From Oscillospiraceae bacterium (GTDB lineage Bacteria > Bacillota > Clostridia > Oscillospirales > Oscillospiraceae), in assembly GCA_902802565.1 (NCBI GenBank), contig CADCMP010000001.1, forward strand, positions 64,711-116,968: a stretch of 52,258 nucleotides of DNA, given 5' to 3'. The notes under the pieces were generated by a model. It was not told the DNA's origin. It saw only the letters and a program-made list of their open reading frames with translations, and did no database searches. Below, in pieces: positions 2,162-16,583 of the stretch. The position numbers and the translations under genes were made by a program. Numbering within the stretch: position 1 is the first letter of the stretch; every line of letters begins with the position of its first letter.

Positions 2162-2656
<495 letters not shown>

Positions 2657-2704
2657 TCCCAACGGAATCTCAGATAAAATAAAGATAAAAGGCAGGACTT
2701 TGAA

Positions 2705-3307
2705 ATGAAAGGTATTGAAAAAATATCCGCTCATATCGAAGCCGATGCAAAAGCTGCAGCACAGAGCGTGCTGGACGCAGCCCAGGCAAAGGTCAACCAG
2801 ATCAAGGCAGATTTTGACCAGAAGGTGAAGACGGTCTACGAGACCAAGATCGCCGACGGCAAAAAGGAGATCGACGGCAAGGTCGACAACGCCGCACGTC
2901 TGGGAAACATGGAAGCGAAGAAATCCGTCCTTGCTGCCAAGCAGGAGATGGTTTCCAAGGCTTTTGACCGTGCCCAGGAGATGATCATCGATTTGCCGGC
3001 GGAAAAGTACGAGGCGTTCCTGACGAAGCTCGTCGTGGAATCCGCCAACACCGGCAAGGAAGAAGTGGTCTTCAATGAGCGTGACAAATCAAAACATGCA
3101 AAGAAAGTAGTGGATGCTGCCAACAAGCAGCTCTCCGCAAACGGCATGGAAGGCGGCCTGAGCGTCGCAGACAGAACCGCGGATATCGCCGGTGGCGTCC
3201 TTCTCAGCGAGGGCGGCATCGAAGTGAACTCTTCCCTGGAACTTCTGATGGACGTCTGCCGCACCGAAATGTCTTCACAGGTTGCTGAAGTATTGTTCGG
3301 AGAATGA
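2705..3307 (+). CDS. ntpE: V-type ATP synthase subunit E (peripheral stalk)
   Basis: The protein has 200 residues. The first 110 or so are a charged helical region rich in Ala, Lys and Glu that would pair with NtpF as a stalk. The C-terminal half is a globular domain with GGVLLSEGGIEVNSSLE followed by an amphipathic end, as in E-subunit families. It sits between ntpK and ntpC, the normal place. The gene starts at ATG 2705 after a weak GGCAGGA-like site. It is not expected to be catalytic; its role is to clamp the head to subunit I. Confidence 0.92.
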   Translation: MKGIEKISAHIEADAKAAAQSVLDAAQAKVNQIKADFDQKVKTVYETKIADGKKEIDGKVDNAARLGNMEAKKSVLAAKQEMVSKAFDRAQEMIIDLPAEKYEAFLTKLVVESANTGKEEVVFNERDKSKHAKKVVDAANKQLSANGMEGGLSVADRTADIAGGVLLSEGGIEVNSSLELLMDVCRTEMSSQVAEVLFGE

Positions 3308-3340
3308 GCATTTAGCATTCCAACAACAGGAGGGAATAAT

Positions 3341-4342
3341 TTGGCTAACAAAAAAGAAGATTATCTTTTTCTGTCGGCGATGCTAAGAGCTCGTGAGTCA
3401 AAAATGCTGAAGCGGTCCAAAGCGGAAGCGATGCTGGACGCCTCTTCCTTCGGGGAAGCGGCCCGCATGGTCTCCGACTGCGGATACAAGGATATGTCGG
3501 CGATGAACGCCAAGGAGATCGAACAGGCACTCAACGAACACCGTGCCGAGGAGTTTGCCGAACTGGGCAGAATGGCTCCCAACGAGAGTGTCGTGGACCT
3601 GTTCCGTACGAAGTACGATTACCACAACGTCAAGACTCTGCTGAAGGCAGAGGCCGAGAATGTGGATCGTTCCGATCTTCTCAATGATTCCGGAAGGATC
3701 TCCGTGGAGAAACTGACGGAAGCCATCCATGAGGATCAGCTCGTAGGCGTTCCTTCGATCCTGGGCGATGCCATCCGTGAGGCCAAGACGGTCCTCGCAC
3801 GGACGGGCAACCCGCAGCTGGCAGACTTTATCCTGGACCGTGCGTACTTCGAGGAGCTGGACGGTTTCTCCAAGGAACTCAACAGCGAATTCCTCAAAGG
3901 CTACGTACAGGTCATGATTGACTCAGCTAATCTACGCAGCGCCGTAAGAACATTGCGTATGCATAAAGACGCCGATTTCCTGAGAACCGCATTCGTCCCC
4001 GGCGGCAATGTGGATGAGGCACGTCTTCTGAACGTGACCTTCTCCGGCAACGGCGAAGGACTGGCACAGCTTTTCAACACCGGAACGCTGTCCAAGGCCG
4101 CATCTCTCGGTGCAGCCGCAGCGGCCGGCGGGACCATGACCGAGTTCGAACGCGCCTGCGACGACGCAGTCACGGCCTATCTGAAAAAGTCCGGACTGGT
4201 CGCCTATGGCGAGGAACCCGTGATCACCTATCTGGCTGAGCTGGAGGGTGAGATCACCACCATCAGAATGATTCTGACCGGTCGGCTGGCGGGTATCGAG
4301 CCCCAGGTCATCAAGGAAAGGTTGCGTGATCTTTATGCTTAA
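3341..4342 (+). CDS. ntpC: V-type ATP synthase subunit C
   Basis: This 333-residue, mostly helical soluble protein is the C subunit that caps the K ring and docks the central stalk. The start is a TTG at 3341, preceded by AGGAGGG with a spacing of about seven bases; no ATG fits better. Sequence such as YDYHNVKTLLKAEAENVDRSDLL is characteristic of the family. The 3' end overlaps the start of ntpG by eight bases, so the two are probably translationally coupled. Confidence 0.92.
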   Translation: MANKKEDYLFLSAMLRARESKMLKRSKAEAMLDASSFGEAARMVSDCGYKDMSAMNAKEIEQALNEHRAEEFAELGRMAPNESVVDLFRTKYDYHNVKTLLKAEAENVDRSDLLNDSGRISVEKLTEAIHEDQLVGVPSILGDAIREAKTVLARTGNPQLADFILDRAYFEELDGFSKELNSEFLKGYVQVMIDSANLRSAVRTLRMHKDADFLRTAFVPGGNVDEARLLNVTFSGNGEGLAQLFNTGTLSKAASLGAAAAAGGTMTEFERACDDAVTAYLKKSGLVAYGEEPVITYLAELEGEITTIRMILTGRLAGIEPQVIKERLRDLYA

Positions 4343-4655
4343 AATAGCTGTTATCGGCGGTCGTGAGACCGTTATGGGCTTCAAGGCTCTCGGCCTGGAA
4401 GCCTGCCCCGTTGAGAATCTCACCGAGGCAAAAGAGACTTTAAGAAAGCTCACCAGGGACTCGGATGATTATGCCATCATCTATATCGAGGAGAATCTCG
4501 CAGAGAATCTGACGGATGAGATCGATCGGTACAAGGATCTTCCCAAACCCGCCATCATCCTCATTCCCGGACGTGAGGGCAGCAATGGTCTCGGTATTAA
4601 CGCACTGAACGCGGCTGTTGAACGTGCTATCGGCACCAACATCCTGGAAAATTAA
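4335..4655 (+). CDS. ntpG: V-type ATP synthase subunit F (NtpG, central stalk)
   Basis: This 106-residue protein belongs to the small alpha/beta subunit bound to NtpD in the rotating central stalk. Its beginning, KIAVIGGRETVMGFKALG, is the typical N-terminus of the family. ATG 4335 was chosen because it gives this canonical start and lies about 12 bases after AAGGAAAGG. An in-frame GTG at 4326 is possible but sits on the ribosome-binding site. The gene overlaps the end of ntpC. It is called G in the E. hirae naming and F in the archaeal/V-type naming. Confidence 0.93.
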   Translation: MLKIAVIGGRETVMGFKALGLEACPVENLTEAKETLRKLTRDSDDYAIIYIEENLAENLTDEIDRYKDLPKPAIILIPGREGSNGLGINALNAAVERAIGTNILEN

Positions 4656-12370: not shown

Positions 12371-12409
12371 GTCAACATATAGCCGTTATTGACTGCGGAG
12401 GGTTTGTTT

Positions 12410-14224
12410 ATGGACCATAACAGAAAAGACAAGAACGGCACTCTCTTCAGTGAATGGTTTCGTCAGATGGATCGTCGGGAACTGATCGAGACGATCTCCC
12501 AGCTGTGCGATGCCGTGATCAGGGATGCCGGAGAAAACAATTACCGCGGCGGGATCCGCCCGGGAAATATTTTCCGCAACGAGCAGGGTGAGATCACCCT
12601 CGGCGACGGCGGAATGCCGCAGAGAAGCAGCTGGACCGCGGAACAGCTGGAGTTCATCTCTCCGGAGGAATTCTGGAACGGAGAGGCTTCCACACGATCC
12701 GACGTGTATTCACTGGGTCTGCTGATCTATTACTGCATTTCCGGAGGCAAGCTGCCCTTCCAGCCGGACAAGAAGAAGCTGTCCGCGGAAGAGCGCGCCA
12801 AGACCGTCCGCCGCAGAATGGGCGGAGAGCCCATCAATGCTCCGGAAGGGAGCGGAAAGAGCCTGGGCTCCATCATCGAGAAAGCCCTTTCCTTCCGTCC
12901 GGAAGACCGTTACACCTCCGTGGATGATCTTCCCATCGTGCTGAAGCTGTGCCTGAAGGAACTGGATTCTCCCAAGCCTTCGGAGCCGGTGATCGAGAAG
13001 ACGGAAGAGGAACTGTCGGATGCCGAGAACATGATGGTGGGCATCATCAGCAAGGCAGCGGAAGAAGCCGCACTGTCCGACGGCGAGAAGAAAGAAGCCG
13101 CGGCTCCGGAAGAGACCGAGTCGCTGGAAGATATCGAGGTGGAGATCGTCGACATGGACGAGGAACCGGAAGCCGAAGCCTCCGGCGAAGAAGTCCCCGC
13201 CGAGAACGAGCCCGAAGAGACCGCCGGAGAAGCTCCGGCAGAGGAGGCCGAAGAGCCCGCACCTGCCGAAGAAGCAGCCGCCGAAGAAACACCCGCCGAA
13301 ACGCCGGCGGAGGAAGTCCCGGCAGAGGAGCCTGCCGCCGTGGAAGAGCCGGCAGCGGAAGAACCCGAGGCCGGGGAAGAGGCGAAACCGGAAGAAGAGT
13401 CCGACGGCAAGGCAGCGGCCGCTGCCGCCGCAGCTGCAGCCGCGGCTGCAGGCACGGTCCTGGCATCCAAGGACGAACGCATCGGATCCGGAGCCGGCCC
13501 CAGAACTCCGTCGAAGAGACCGGAGAAGGGTCAGGGGAACTCCAGACCTGCCGTGTCCTATCAGACCGGCTCGAAGAAACCGAATCCTTCTTCCAAGAAA
13601 AAGAAAAAGAAGAGCTACCGCGGGGTGCTGGCACTGCTCCTTCTGTGTGCACTGCTGGTCCTGGCCGCCATTATCCTCCATGCCATAACAAAGCATACGC
13701 AGGAACCGGCGGAACCCACCCCGACTGCGGTTCCCACCGCCACACAGGCCGCCGAGACGGATGTCGTTCCCGAGCCGCCTGAGACCAGCGAGCCGGAACC
13801 GTCCGAGGCTCCGGAAGCGGCACTGACCGTTTACAAGGAAGACTCCAGCTGGACTGCCGCAGAGAGCAAGTGCGAATCCCTGGGCGGACATCTGGCCGTG
13901 ATCCACAATGAGGAAGAACTGCAGGAGATCATCTCTCTTGCCAAGCAGCAGGGAATGCGCTTCATCTGGATCGGATGTCAGAGAATGTCCGACGGTGCAC
14001 TGCACTGGGTCAACGGAGATGCCATCGACTACTACGTATGGGCAGACGGCGAGCCGTCCCTCATCGGCAGCGGCGGTGAGTCCGAGAACTACATCATGCT
14101 CTGGAACACCAGAGAGGATCTCACCGGAGAATGGGTCTACAACGATGTCGGAAACAATCCCGCAATGGAATATGCCTCCACATACAGCGGACGCATGGGA
14201 TACATCCTGCAGACCGGAAACTGA
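12410..14224 (+). CDS. Membrane protein: degenerate kinase C-lobe, acidic linker, TM helix, extracellular C-type-lectin-like domain
   Basis: The protein has 604 residues; ATG 12410 is seven bases after GGAGGG. Residues about 20-185 match the C-lobe of a Ser/Thr kinase: RGGIRPGNIF replaces HRDxKPxN with the catalytic Asp changed to Gly, LGDGG replaces DFG, then SPEEF (APE-like), SDVYSLGLLIYY and the subdomain XI arginine (PEDRY). The N-lobe with P-loop and VAIK lysine is missing, so it is a pseudokinase. Residues about 200-345 are Glu/Ala/Pro repeats, then 13 alanines, a Lys-rich stop and one membrane helix (about 415-435). A Pro/Thr linker leads to a C-terminal domain with SWTAAESKCESLGGHLAVI and WIG/EW positions typical of C-type-lectin-like folds. 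Topology is kinase-like inside, lectin-like outside. Function is unknown. Confidence 0.85.
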   Translation: MDHNRKDKNGTLFSEWFRQMDRRELIETISQLCDAVIRDAGENNYRGGIRPGNIFRNEQGEITLGDGGMPQRSSWTAEQLEFISPEEFWNGEASTRSDVYSLGLLIYYCISGGKLPFQPDKKKLSAEERAKTVRRRMGGEPINAPEGSGKSLGSIIEKALSFRPEDRYTSVDDLPIVLKLCLKELDSPKPSEPVIEKTEEELSDAENMMVGIISKAAEEAALSDGEKKEAAAPEETESLEDIEVEIVDMDEEPEAEASGEEVPAENEPEETAGEAPAEEAEEPAPAEEAAAEETPAETPAEEVPAEEPAAVEEPAAEEPEAGEEAKPEEESDGKAAAAAAAAAAAAAGTVLASKDERIGSGAGPRTPSKRPEKGQGNSRPAVSYQTGSKKPNPSSKKKKKKSYRGVLALLLLCALLVLAAIILHAITKHTQEPAEPTPTAVPTATQAAETDVVPEPPETSEPEPSEAPEAALTVYKEDSSWTAAESKCESLGGHLAVIHNEEELQEIISLAKQQGMRFIWIGCQRMSDGALHWVNGDAIDYYVWADGEPSLIGSGGESENYIMLWNTREDLTGEWVYNDVGNNPAMEYASTYSGRMGYILQTGN

Positions 14225-14236
14225 TCGATACCACCC

Positions 14237-14266
14237 ACAGCCGGGCATTTGCCCGGCTGTTTTTTT
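14237..14266 (+). terminator. Intrinsic terminator after the pseudokinase-lectin gene
   Basis: A perfect 10-bp stem (ACAGCCGGGC / GCCCGGCTGT) with loop ATTT is followed by seven T residues. Confidence 0.95.
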
Positions 14267-14338: not shown

Positions 14339-14350
14339 CTGCGTAAGGTA

Positions 14351-14381
14351 TTGCTCGTTACGCAGCGTCATGATGTAGAAT
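14351..14381 (+). promoter_or_regulatory. MerR-type promoter with 19-bp spacer and operator dyad
   Basis: The -35-like TTGCTC (14351-14356) and -10 TAGAAT (14376-14381) are 19 bases apart, the overlong spacing that MerR regulators correct by twisting DNA. An imperfect dyad, TTACGC-A-GCGTCA (14358-14370), lies in the spacer where MerR operators sit. GCGTAA recurs at 14341 and 14387. It directly precedes the merR-like gene, implying autoregulation (inference). Confidence 0.7.
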
Positions 14382-14406
14382 CCATGGCGTAAGGGAGGTG
14401 AAAGCT

Positions 14407-15132
14407 ATGTCCAAATACACAACGGGAGAGCTGGCGAAGCTCTGCGGTGTTACCGTTCGAACGGTTCAGTATTATGATACCAGGGGCATCCTGGTCCCCA
14501 GTGAGCTGTCCGAAGGCGGAAGACGGCTTTACTCGGAAGACGATCTGAAGCTCATGAAGATCATCTGCTTTCTGCGGGAACTGGATCTTCCCCTCGATGC
14601 CATCTCGCAGATCCTGGAGGAAGAGCATCCCGAGAAAGTGATCTCACTGCTGATCGAGCAGCAGGAGGAAGCCCTTTCCGATGAGATCTCCGAAAAACAG
14701 GAAAAACTGGAAAAGCTTCGTGAACTGAAAAACGGACTGAAAAGCAGATCCGCATTCTCTCTCGAATCCATCGGTGACATAGCCGTATTTATGGAAGGCA
14801 GGAAAAAACTGAAAAAGATGCGCTGGATGATGATCCTCACCGGGATCCCGGTCACGGCACTGCAGTGGTTTTCCATCATCTATTGGATCATCTGCGGCGT
14901 CTGGTGGCCCTTCGTCATCTGGGTGCTGGTGGCGGTTCCCTGGGGGATCCTGGTCAGCCGGTACTACTTCAATCATGTGAAATATATCTGCCCGGAATGC
15001 CACGAGGTGTTCAAACCCGCTCTGAAGGAAGCCTTCTGGGCGAATCACACGCCCACCGCCCGTAAGCTGACATGCTCCGGATGCGGTCACAGAGGCTTCT
15101 GCGTGGAAGTATGGGGAGGTGACGGAAGATGA
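14407..15132 (+). CDS. Membrane-anchored MerR-family regulator with C-terminal zinc ribbon
   Basis: The protein has 241 residues; ATG 14407 lies six bases after GGGAGGTG. A MerR winged helix (TTGELAKLCGVTVRTVQYYD, residues 5-24) and its wing region (GGRRLYSEDDL) are clear. A coiled-coil dimerisation helix follows (about 85-112). Two membrane helices occupy about 139-162 and 165-186, an unusual feature for MerR proteins. The C-terminus has a CPECH...CSGCGH zinc ribbon with cysteines 195, 198, 223 and 226. Both ends should be cytoplasmic. The stop overlaps the ATG of a YhfC-type intramembrane protease gene in ATGA. The inference is a tethered transcription factor controlled at the membrane, perhaps released by that protease. 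Confidence 0.88.
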   Translation: MSKYTTGELAKLCGVTVRTVQYYDTRGILVPSELSEGGRRLYSEDDLKLMKIICFLRELDLPLDAISQILEEEHPEKVISLLIEQQEEALSDEISEKQEKLEKLRELKNGLKSRSAFSLESIGDIAVFMEGRKKLKKMRWMMILTGIPVTALQWFSIIYWIICGVWWPFVIWVLVAVPWGILVSRYYFNHVKYICPECHEVFKPALKEAFWANHTPTARKLTCSGCGHRGFCVEVWGGDGR

Positions 15133-15971
15133 GTGAATTTGAGAATATCGTCATCGGGAAAAGCAGTATTCCGTCGCTGATCATCACCGTCGTTCTGATG
15201 ATCGCCATCCCCGTCGTCTTCTTTCTCTTCTGGCGCGGGAAGCATAAACAGAGGACCGGGATCCGGTATCTCCTGGCCGGAGCCGTCGGATTTCTGGTTT
15301 CCGCCCGTGTGCTGGAACTGGGCGTACATTATTTCTGTATCATTTCGGAGAATCCCGTTTCCCGGTTCATCAACGGAAATACCGCGGCGTTCGTCCTGTA
15401 CGGAATCACCATGGCGGGTGTTTTCGAGGAGTGCGGAAGACATATCATTCTGAAATACATCATGAAAAAGGACCGCACCCGTGAAAATGCGGTGCTGTAC
15501 GGCATCGGTCACGGCGGGATCGAGATCCTGGCGGTGCTCCTGCCCACGATGATCACCTATCTTGCCGTCGCCGTGCTGTTCTCTTCCGGGAATACGGAAT
15601 CGGCGCTCAGCGCACTGAAGATCACGGAGCAGACGGCTGCCGCCGCACTGCCGTCGGTCCAGGCCGCTGCCGCGTTCGATTACGGAATGATGGCCATGAA
15701 CGTCATGGAGCGTCTGTTCGCGATGTTCGCCCATATCGGACTGACGGTGATCGTTTTTTATGGCGTTGTGAATGCTAAGAAGCTCTGCCTGCCGGCCGCC
15801 ATCCTGCTGCATATGCTGATGGATACCTTTCCGGCCCTGTATCAGCGCGGCGTAGTGCCGTTGTGGTCAGTGGAAGTCTGGGTAGCTCTGTGTACTGTCG
15901 TGATTGGCTGGATCGCCGTGCAGCTCTACCGGAAGATGAAAGCACCGTCTTCCGCCGGAAGTGTTTTGTGA
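15129..15971 (+). CDS. YhfC-family intramembrane protease-like protein
   Basis: This 280-residue protein has about seven or eight membrane helices. Conserved polar residues within helices match the YhfC family, related to CPBP/Abi glutamic-type intramembrane proteases: EECGR (Glu100, Glu101, Arg104), YGIGHGGIE (His128), MERLFAMFAHIG (Glu194, His202) and HMLMDTFPALYQRG (His228, Asp232). Proteolytic activity is expected from clan membership and is not demonstrated for most members. The four-base overlap with the membrane-anchored MerR gene argues for joint function, with the regulator as the likely substrate (inference). Confidence 0.83.
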   Translation: MSEFENIVIGKSSIPSLIITVVLMIAIPVVFFLFWRGKHKQRTGIRYLLAGAVGFLVSARVLELGVHYFCIISENPVSRFINGNTAAFVLYGITMAGVFEECGRHIILKYIMKKDRTRENAVLYGIGHGGIEILAVLLPTMITYLAVAVLFSSGNTESALSALKITEQTAAAALPSVQAAAAFDYGMMAMNVMERLFAMFAHIGLTVIVFYGVVNAKKLCLPAAILLHMLMDTFPALYQRGVVPLWSVEVWVALCTVVIGWIAVQLYRKMKAPSSAGSVL

Positions 15972-16005: not shown

Positions 16006-16115
16006 GGGTTCCGCGTAGCCATGCAGCCTGATTCCACCTGAATTCTCTGAATGAGGGATGGACTTATATGCCATTTGATCATATGATGGTTCAAAACGAG
16101 AGGAGGATTTCTTCG

Positions 16116-16583
16116 ATGAATCAAATGGAGATTGGATCCTTTATAGCAAAAAAGAGAAAAGAAAAAAACTATACACAGGCGATTCTTGCCGAAAAACTTA
16201 GAGTATCAAATAAAACCATATCAAAGTGGGAAACAGGAAAAAGCATGCCGGATTATGCGGTTATCCAAAATCTATGTAGTGAATTGGATATCAGTCTTTC
16301 AGAACTGATGGACGCAGAGGAGAATGAATCCAACAGTATCCGTCCATATGATGAGGAACAGATCCTTGAACTGATAAGAAGAACTCAGAATCTAGAAAAT
16401 CAAAGGACTTCCTTATATGGAGCAATCCTGATTGTGATGGGAATCGCCCTGCTGACACTGAGTTTTGTGGTGGGAGGAAGCAACCTTCGGGATTTCTGTT
16501 CTGGTATATTATTAGGATTATCCATTGTTGAGATGCTGGCAGGAGTTTACATGCTGGCAAGAGGGTTCTCTAAACAGCAATAA
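16116..16583 (+). CDS. XRE-family regulator with two C-terminal membrane helices
   Basis: The protein has 155 residues; ATG 16116 follows AGGAGG by nine bases, while the upstream ATG at 16068 has no such site. Residues 5-62 are a classic XRE helix-turn-helix (IGSFIAKKRKEKNYTQ; VSNKTISKWETGKSMPD). After a short acidic/helical linker, two hydrophobic helices occupy about 98-118 and 127-149. It is thus a second membrane-tethered DNA-binding protein next to the MerR/protease pair. The coding sequence is visibly more AT-rich, with A-ending codons, than its neighbours, which suggests recent acquisition. A palindrome overlaps its promoter. Confidence 0.87.
   Translation: MNQMEIGSFIAKKRKEKNYTQAILAEKLRVSNKTISKWETGKSMPDYAVIQNLCSELDISLSELMDAEENESNSIRPYDEEQILELIRRTQNLENQRTSLYGAILIVMGIALLTLSFVVGGSNLRDFCSGILLGLSIVEMLAGVYMLARGFSKQQ

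Follow-up and report, generated by a model that had tools for sequence, protein, structure and literature searches.

A merR-yhfC gene pair in a 52,258-nt stretch of Oscillospiraceae DNA (hereafter the window) is most simply explained as a one-component switch that is held at the membrane and governs a protective membrane protease. In its full form, which we favor by a little better than an even chance, the cassette would be self-contained and autoregulated: a membrane-tethered MerR regulator would sense the signal itself, and its output would be a glutamic-type intramembrane protease that protects the membrane. The initial annotation had already noted that the merR stop and the start of a YhfC-type gene share four nucleotides, as is indeed seen in the sequence, and the other elements of the cassette are collected in Table 1. 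The gene upstream of the cassette (12389-14224) encodes a partial kinase-like part (PF07714 above the cut-off, PF00069 below), a stretch with low complexity and TM character and, at the C terminus, a C-type lectin domain. Directly 3′ of yhfC, 16068-16583 encodes a two-TM protein that has an XRE HTH but lacks a zinc ribbon; its likelier start, preceded by a ribosome-binding site, lies at 16116. It was rejected as a third cassette member because no other listed locus carries a two-TM gene of this size (about 171 aa) behind the protease.

Table 1. Coordinates of the merR-yhfC cassette and its boundary in the window
Feature	Position	Strand	Basis
Terminator-like stem at the end of the upstream gene; cassette boundary	14237..14260	+	10-pair G+C-rich stem and T run
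Upstream operator half-site GCGTAA	14341..14346	+	Conserved as GCGTMA in relatives
MerR-type promoter: -35 TTGCTC, 19-bp spacer, -10 TAGAAT	14351..14381	+	Layout kept in relatives
Operator core TTACGCAGCGTCA, dyad TKACGC-N-GCGTMA, inside the spacer	14358..14370	+	Conserved
merR ribosome-binding site GGGAGG	14393..14398	+	Sequence; GGAGG common in relatives
merR (241 aa): HTH, coil, two-TM hairpin, zinc ribbon	14407..15132	+	Profile match, alignment, AlphaFold2
TM-hairpin coding part of merR (about aa 141-188)	14827..14970	+	Hydropathy, AlphaFold2 helices, conservation
Zinc-ribbon coding part of merR (about aa 193-234)	14983..15108	+	Conserved cysteines
ATGA stop/start overlap	15129..15132	+	merR ends in ATGA in 66/72 YhfC cassettes
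yhfC (280 aa): YhfC-family glutamic-type intramembrane protease, putative	15129..15971	+	PF10086, motifs, fold

MerR unites a DNA-binding domain with TM segments, the make-up of a transmembrane one-component regulator. The former is a winged HTH with the MerR signature (MerR_1, PF13411; E 1e-20, 74 bits against a cut-off of 21.6), which in both sequence and fold is nearest to TipAL, MtaN and their kin; the fold matches of the model were MtaN, TipAL and BmrR. Hydropathy counts two hydrophobic helices (about aa 141-163 and 167-190), and an AlphaFold2 model of moderate quality (pLDDT 76, pTM 0.39) places helices at 119-163 and 167-190. The two TM helices would leave the zinc ribbon (C195-x2-C198 ... 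C223-x2-C226) in the cytoplasm. Its four cysteines and C232 are kept in 112/112 aligned sequences, and H199, H214 and C232 are also invariant in an alignment of 67. The two membrane helices and zinc ribbon reported initially are borne out by hydropathy, structure prediction and conservation. Membership of the zinc/heavy-metal MerR class was rejected: the best NCBIfam match, the ZntR equivalog, reached 57.6 bits against a cut-off of 167.95, and the CueR and MerR equivalogs also scored far under their cut-offs.

The neighboring protein matches YhfC alone in the profile search (PF10086; E 2.5e-47, 161.7 bits against a cut-off of 24.2), and no SdpI was found in the window's operon. E100, E101, R104, H128, E132, H202, H228 and D232 are invariant in 62 aligned sequences and contain the EExxR and His motifs of the CPBP/APH-1 superfamily, which we take to be its active-site (catalytic-type) motifs; Glu100 and His128, singled out before, both fall within them. 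The AlphaFold2 model is very good (pLDDT 92.9), and its three best PDB matches were all APH-1 of gamma-secretase (probability 1.00, TM 0.55-0.71), which places it in the superfamily fold even though E was merely 0.008-0.03. Rce1 was absent among the 50 PDB matches listed, and a search of solved structures by sequence gave 0 matches.

The promoter has the form known from MerR control, with a dyad inside a spacer of 19 bp, within the 19-20 bp of such promoters; MerR proteins activate promoters by spacer realignment. Spacer and dyad had been described in the initial annotation and recur in relatives inside and outside the window's clade, and the upstream half-site is an addition to the elements it listed. 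Among 104 sufficiently long upstream regions, 103 match the -35 and dyad pattern, and TANNNT follows the -35 at exactly 19 bp in 96% of these 103, so the layout is not due to chance. The variable base of the upstream half-site is complementary to the left-arm base of the spacer in 70 of 86 promoters (51 A/T and 19 C/G pairs versus 16 not complementary; Fisher p 1.8e-7, relatedness not corrected), the 86 being those of 102 scored promoters with A or C at the half-site and T or G opposite. The two arms inside the spacer showed no covariation in this set (p 0.39). A reading of the operator as an RNA hairpin was rejected, since the upstream half-site lies 5′ of the -35.

Relatives were pooled into 124 loci; with duplicates removed by the final 150 MerR residues, 116 were left, the window among them. 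Downstream of merR, the adjacent gene encodes YhfC in 72, a Rce1-like CPBP protein in 9 (CPBPa 7, CPBPb 2), an ABC ATPase in 8 and none of these in 27, three of which end at a contig end; a YhfC or CPBP gene is thus next in 81/116. Six labels (L037, L057, L095, L105, L123 and L130) were set by hand, as the mechanical ORF start fell outside the examined region. The merR ends other than ATGA among the YhfC cassettes were GTGA (5) and TTGA (1), and in L130 the overlap codon is outside the protease frame. For a tree of 112 rows, four MerRs shorter than 215 aa were dropped (quick maximum likelihood, SH-aLRT support only, midpoint root). The branch that holds the window (support 99) comprises 81 MerRs, 68 with YhfC, 6 with CPBPa and 7 with no partner (2 of them contig ends); the ABC forms and most solitary forms fall outside it. 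A glutamic protease therefore adjoins MerR in 74/79 resolvable cases of the clade, a figure that speaks for close kin, since the relatives were the best 80 of 481 confirmed in one search. Adjacency to a glutamic intramembrane protease, on which the initial annotation had staked its reading, is thus conserved, and that reading was not refuted by this comparison.

The partner itself is exchangeable. In L032 the TM-zinc-ribbon part is 86% identical to that of the window and the next gene encodes a Rce1-like protease (PF02517, CPBP), and in L054 MerR is 89% identical to the window's while YhfC is merely 33% identical, each exchange occurring at the same overlap. CPBPa requires four changes on the tree, two of them forced by well-supported branches, so YhfC and CPBP were exchanged on more than one occasion; within the clade, resolution is weak and the tree does not give the direction. 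That one regulator is paired with either family, YhfC or Rce1-like, speaks for both being able to serve the same function. Across 67 loci, YhfC mostly co-diverges with MerR (median pairwise identity 72% versus 82%), for which reason a hypervariable arms-race partner was rejected. Two MerR-YhfC cassettes with differing YhfC subtypes (L054 and L074) come from a single metagenome-assembled genome, RGIG1531. The named relatives are nearly all metagenome-assembled or uncultured, mostly from rumen and gut assemblies according to their titles.

A sample of 200 family genomes contained YhfC in 47, YhfC and this MerR type together in 8 and the two adjacent in 6. The TM-zinc-ribbon half was matched in 23 of the 200, of which 18 matches were strong and of MerR type, with YhfC (6), CPBP (4), ABC (5) or no partner (3, one at a contig end) as neighbors; the 5 weak matches comprised four with an XRE HTH replacing MerR and one HTH-less match in a short frame. 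In Vescimonas fastidiosa (L273) and Aerococcus tenax (L274), genes for an ABC ATPase and a permease lie after that of MerR; in L273 a small PLDc_N protein is encoded in between. A mobile phage or plasmid gene was set aside as the main idea, as no relative was confirmed among viral contigs; of the records that gave a match, 1/29 from phages and 4/297 from plasmids reached a query cover of at least 80%.

The operator was then used for a census of candidate targets. The window's genome, 88% complete, holds a single exact operator, at merR, in a search that would miss diverged sites; with up to 3 mismatches, 19 matches were found versus 18 in a reversed control. No regulon beyond the cassette, of the kind expected of regulated intramembrane proteolysis, was thus seen in this genome. 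In the 200 family genomes, 12 of 13 exact sites precede MerR-2TM-zinc-ribbon genes and 1 a soluble MerR with an ABC gene. The 388 order genomes gave 24 exact extended sites and 0 in the control rows listed: 23 precede MerR genes (18 MerR-2TM-zinc-ribbon, one cut by a contig end; 4 soluble MerR with ABC; 1 other MerR) and 1 an unlinked CPBPa gene, in genome G535, whose own MerR stands alone. Of 15 exact sites in the 391 class genomes, 12 were new. Among these, 5 precede MerR-2TM-zinc-ribbon genes (a contig end cuts one of them) and 3 lie at other MerRs, one of which is broken; 2 belong to runs in which a free TM-zinc-ribbon gene stands with yhfC and a MerR-2TM-zinc-ribbon gene, and the remaining 2 lie before an ABC transporter (G793) and an acetyltransferase (L287). 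Five clade members without an adjacent protease were also searched. In G559 an additional exact operator stands in front of a CPBPb gene, and the other four have no second exact operator. The same operator precedes seven soluble MerR genes, each followed by an ABC ATPase (L175, L178 (= L241), L232, L247, L248, L285 and L288; the MerR of L175 has a TipAS match just below the cut-off). Counts with one mismatch were near noise, with 30 sites versus 15 in the reversed control for the 200 family genomes, 38 versus 26 with a looser pattern in 28 genomes, and 7 versus 3 in five genomes; the looser pattern also found one exact site within a gene (L215) in the 28 genomes. Judged by promoter likeness alone, the trans targets (CPBP in G535 and G559, the ABC transporter in G793) would be of the same classes as those in cis. 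The protease is most likely the regulated output of MerR, because the exact operator also precedes unlinked CPBP genes in two relatives whose MerR lacks a protease neighbor.

The TM-zinc-ribbon module also occurs apart from MerR. It is fused to an XRE HTH in 28 loci (27 distinct, 1 HTH-less in frame), one of which (L262) adjoins a protease, and in L030 an XRE-fused gene overlaps a YhfC gene. L317 (G793) and L319 (G692) encode a free TM-zinc-ribbon protein of 116-117 aa, then YhfC, then MerR-2TM-zinc-ribbon, the whole operon lying behind a MerR operator. A stand-alone TM-zinc-ribbon gene follows a soluble MerR in L298 and L306, where this MerR has its own promoter with a TTGACATTGACGC-N-GCGTCA dyad. 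TM-zinc-ribbon proteins of about 105 aa with a lipobox-like start form a family in L297-L299, L301-L303, L305, L306, L308-L311 and L315. Of 20 short zinc-ribbon regions compared with protease and ABC profiles, L312 (G507) alone gave a match; there, 2434-4573 encodes in one run a zinc-ribbon protein, an ArsR regulator, SdpI and a Rce1-like protease (CPBP). SdpI also stands before YhfC in L027, and such settings are reminiscent of the SdpRI operon. In 65 cassettes, the TM part of MerR co-diverges with YhfC (partial r 0.21, permutation p 0.005), the HTH (0.30) and coil (0.40) do so more, and the ribbon does not (0.04, p 0.32), which marks no special tie of the TM part to YhfC and does not disprove cleavage of MerR. 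A comparison of 6 CPBP with 68 YhfC cassettes over 241 columns yielded no convincing partner-specific MerR residues (best p 0.0036); of the columns below p 0.005, a single one, 177, lies in TM2.

The initial annotation had proposed that MerR is freed or silenced by its own protease. In this scheme of regulated intramembrane proteolysis, YhfC or CPBP would cut the MerR TM hairpin upon a zinc or thiol signal and so free or destroy the DNA-binding domain; we consider it rather improbable. The tight stop/start overlap and the invariant active-site motifs of YhfC agree with it, but, by prediction, a freed MerR would have no target other than its own operon. G146, P148 and Q153 in the TM part are invariant across the window's clade, yet the hairpin is much alike in ABC-linked MerRs, and CPBP and YhfC cassettes are not clearly told apart by any column of MerR. 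Proteases adjoin the module when it is XRE-fused (L030, L262) or free-standing (L317, L319), although this holds for a single one of the 28 XRE-type loci; and, while co-divergence with YhfC is seen for the TM part, it is stronger for the HTH and coil. The idea that MerR is released to act elsewhere is further weakened by the protease appearing as a regulated output: the single exact operator of the genome lies in the promoter of merR itself, MerRs of this type are also found solitary or beside ABC transporters, and the operator stands before an unlinked protease in two relatives, where the protease looks like a target. A broader proposal makes the TM hairpin and zinc ribbon a general adaptor of YhfC/CPBP proteins that presents a substrate or is itself cut, with the MerR version reading out protease engagement. 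It draws on the contexts in which the module is joined to MerR or to an XRE HTH, or stands by itself next to a protease, and we hold it to be doubtful; if true, it would amount to a new form of intramembrane-proteolysis signaling, with protease, adaptor and regulator in one autoregulated loop.

A complex that needs no proteolysis is unlikely as well. Here YhfC, in the role of membrane receptor or chaperone, would bind the TM-zinc-ribbon part and so sequester or activate MerR, as SdpI is described to sequester SdpR in the available text of PMC1626106. The SdpI neighbors in L027 and L312 and the operons of free TM-zinc-ribbon protein with YhfC are in keeping with this, and in the portion available of PMC7387801 APH-1, the best fold match, is described as without stand-alone proteolysis and the CPBP-like LnsB as acting in lipoprotein acylation. 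A mere receptor would, however, have no need of invariant catalytic-type residues, and the exchange of YhfC for distant CPBP families while MerR stays about 86% alike is hard to reconcile with a specific interface. Finally, the two genes could be ordinary neighbors, a housekeeping protease and a local MerR bound to the membrane by coincidence, with no common pathway. Solitary MerRs and YhfCs are common, as the family sample illustrates, but the adjacency in the clade, mostly with overlapping genes, the exchange for another protease family and the two unlinked proteases behind the same operator make this very improbable.

For the switch that we favor, the over-long spacer (19 bp) of the merR promoter would be occupied by a MerR dimer, whose TM hairpin and cytoplasmic zinc ribbon would keep the DNA-binding part at the membrane. 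A membrane change, most probably caused by an envelope-active compound or peptide, would be relayed by the TM-zinc-ribbon module to the DNA-binding domain; the promoter would be realigned, yielding more MerR and, through the stop/start overlap, YhfC. YhfC would then protect the membrane, by immunity or clean-up, and the system would return to rest. The zinc-ribbon module may in addition touch the protease, much as SdpI holds SdpR at the membrane, and, in view of the stand-alone TM-zinc-ribbon proteins encoded with YhfC, direct contact with MerR or its cleavage is possible. The links to SdpI and ABC transporters suggest, through guilt by association, an inducible envelope or peptide-immunity cassette. 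Counting against the switch are the 27 loci with neither a protease nor an ABC partner, the four clade members with neither a protease neighbor nor a second exact operator, the site before an acetyltransferase and the HTH-less module before YhfC in L317 and L319, which suggests that the module may work with the protease and not merely serve as a tether.

Several known systems share parts of this design. BcrR, with a DNA-binding domain of the XRE type, resembles MerR, as far as its available description goes, as an HTH protein anchored by TM helices, and some relatives here adjoin ABC genes; the differences lie in the MerR DNA-binding domain, the TM hairpin with zinc ribbon and the protease partner. 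In the available text of PMC10269533, BcrR is a TM-anchored one-component regulator tied to bacitracin resistance and an ABC transporter, regulated intramembrane proteolysis is described for membrane regulators such as TcpP, and the sole word beginning with MerR in the main text is an author name. The TcpP type likewise pairs a membrane-bound regulator with a membrane protease, whereas in the present cassette the protease is the predicted transcriptional target and cleavage is putative. With the drug-responsive MerRs TipA, Mta and BmrR the cassette shares the HTH, the long-spacer promoter and, at soluble MerR and ABC cassettes, the same operator, the C-terminal ligand domain being replaced here by the TM hairpin and zinc ribbon. 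SdpR is of the ArsR type. The SdpR/SdpI pair is similarly a two-gene autoregulator with a polytopic membrane protein, and SdpI genes lie beside L027 and L312; SdpR, however, is a soluble autorepressor and SdpI no protease, and the window's cassette is without SdpI. In the accessible text of PMC1626106, SdpI is the immunity protein and receptor of the SdpRI operon of Bacillus subtilis. CPBP/Abi (CAAX) proteins are linked, in the descriptions available, to bacteriocin production or immunity; Rce1-like proteins replace YhfC in this cassette type, and the link to a membrane-bound MerR sets it apart from those systems. In a literature search with most subscription papers and all bioRxiv preprints outside its scope, only E. 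coli papers, as far as their text was available, joined MerR and YhfC, and none was found that joined SdpI and CPBP; with most subscription papers outside its scope, a search for YhfC and intramembrane gave one review, in whose available text YhfC appears as an entry in a table.

Little function has been assigned to YhfC proteins. In many Clostridia, YhfC/CPBP proteases are accompanied by a tethered regulator and a sharply defined promoter, and this linkage offers a direct route to the inducer and the substrate of these proteases.
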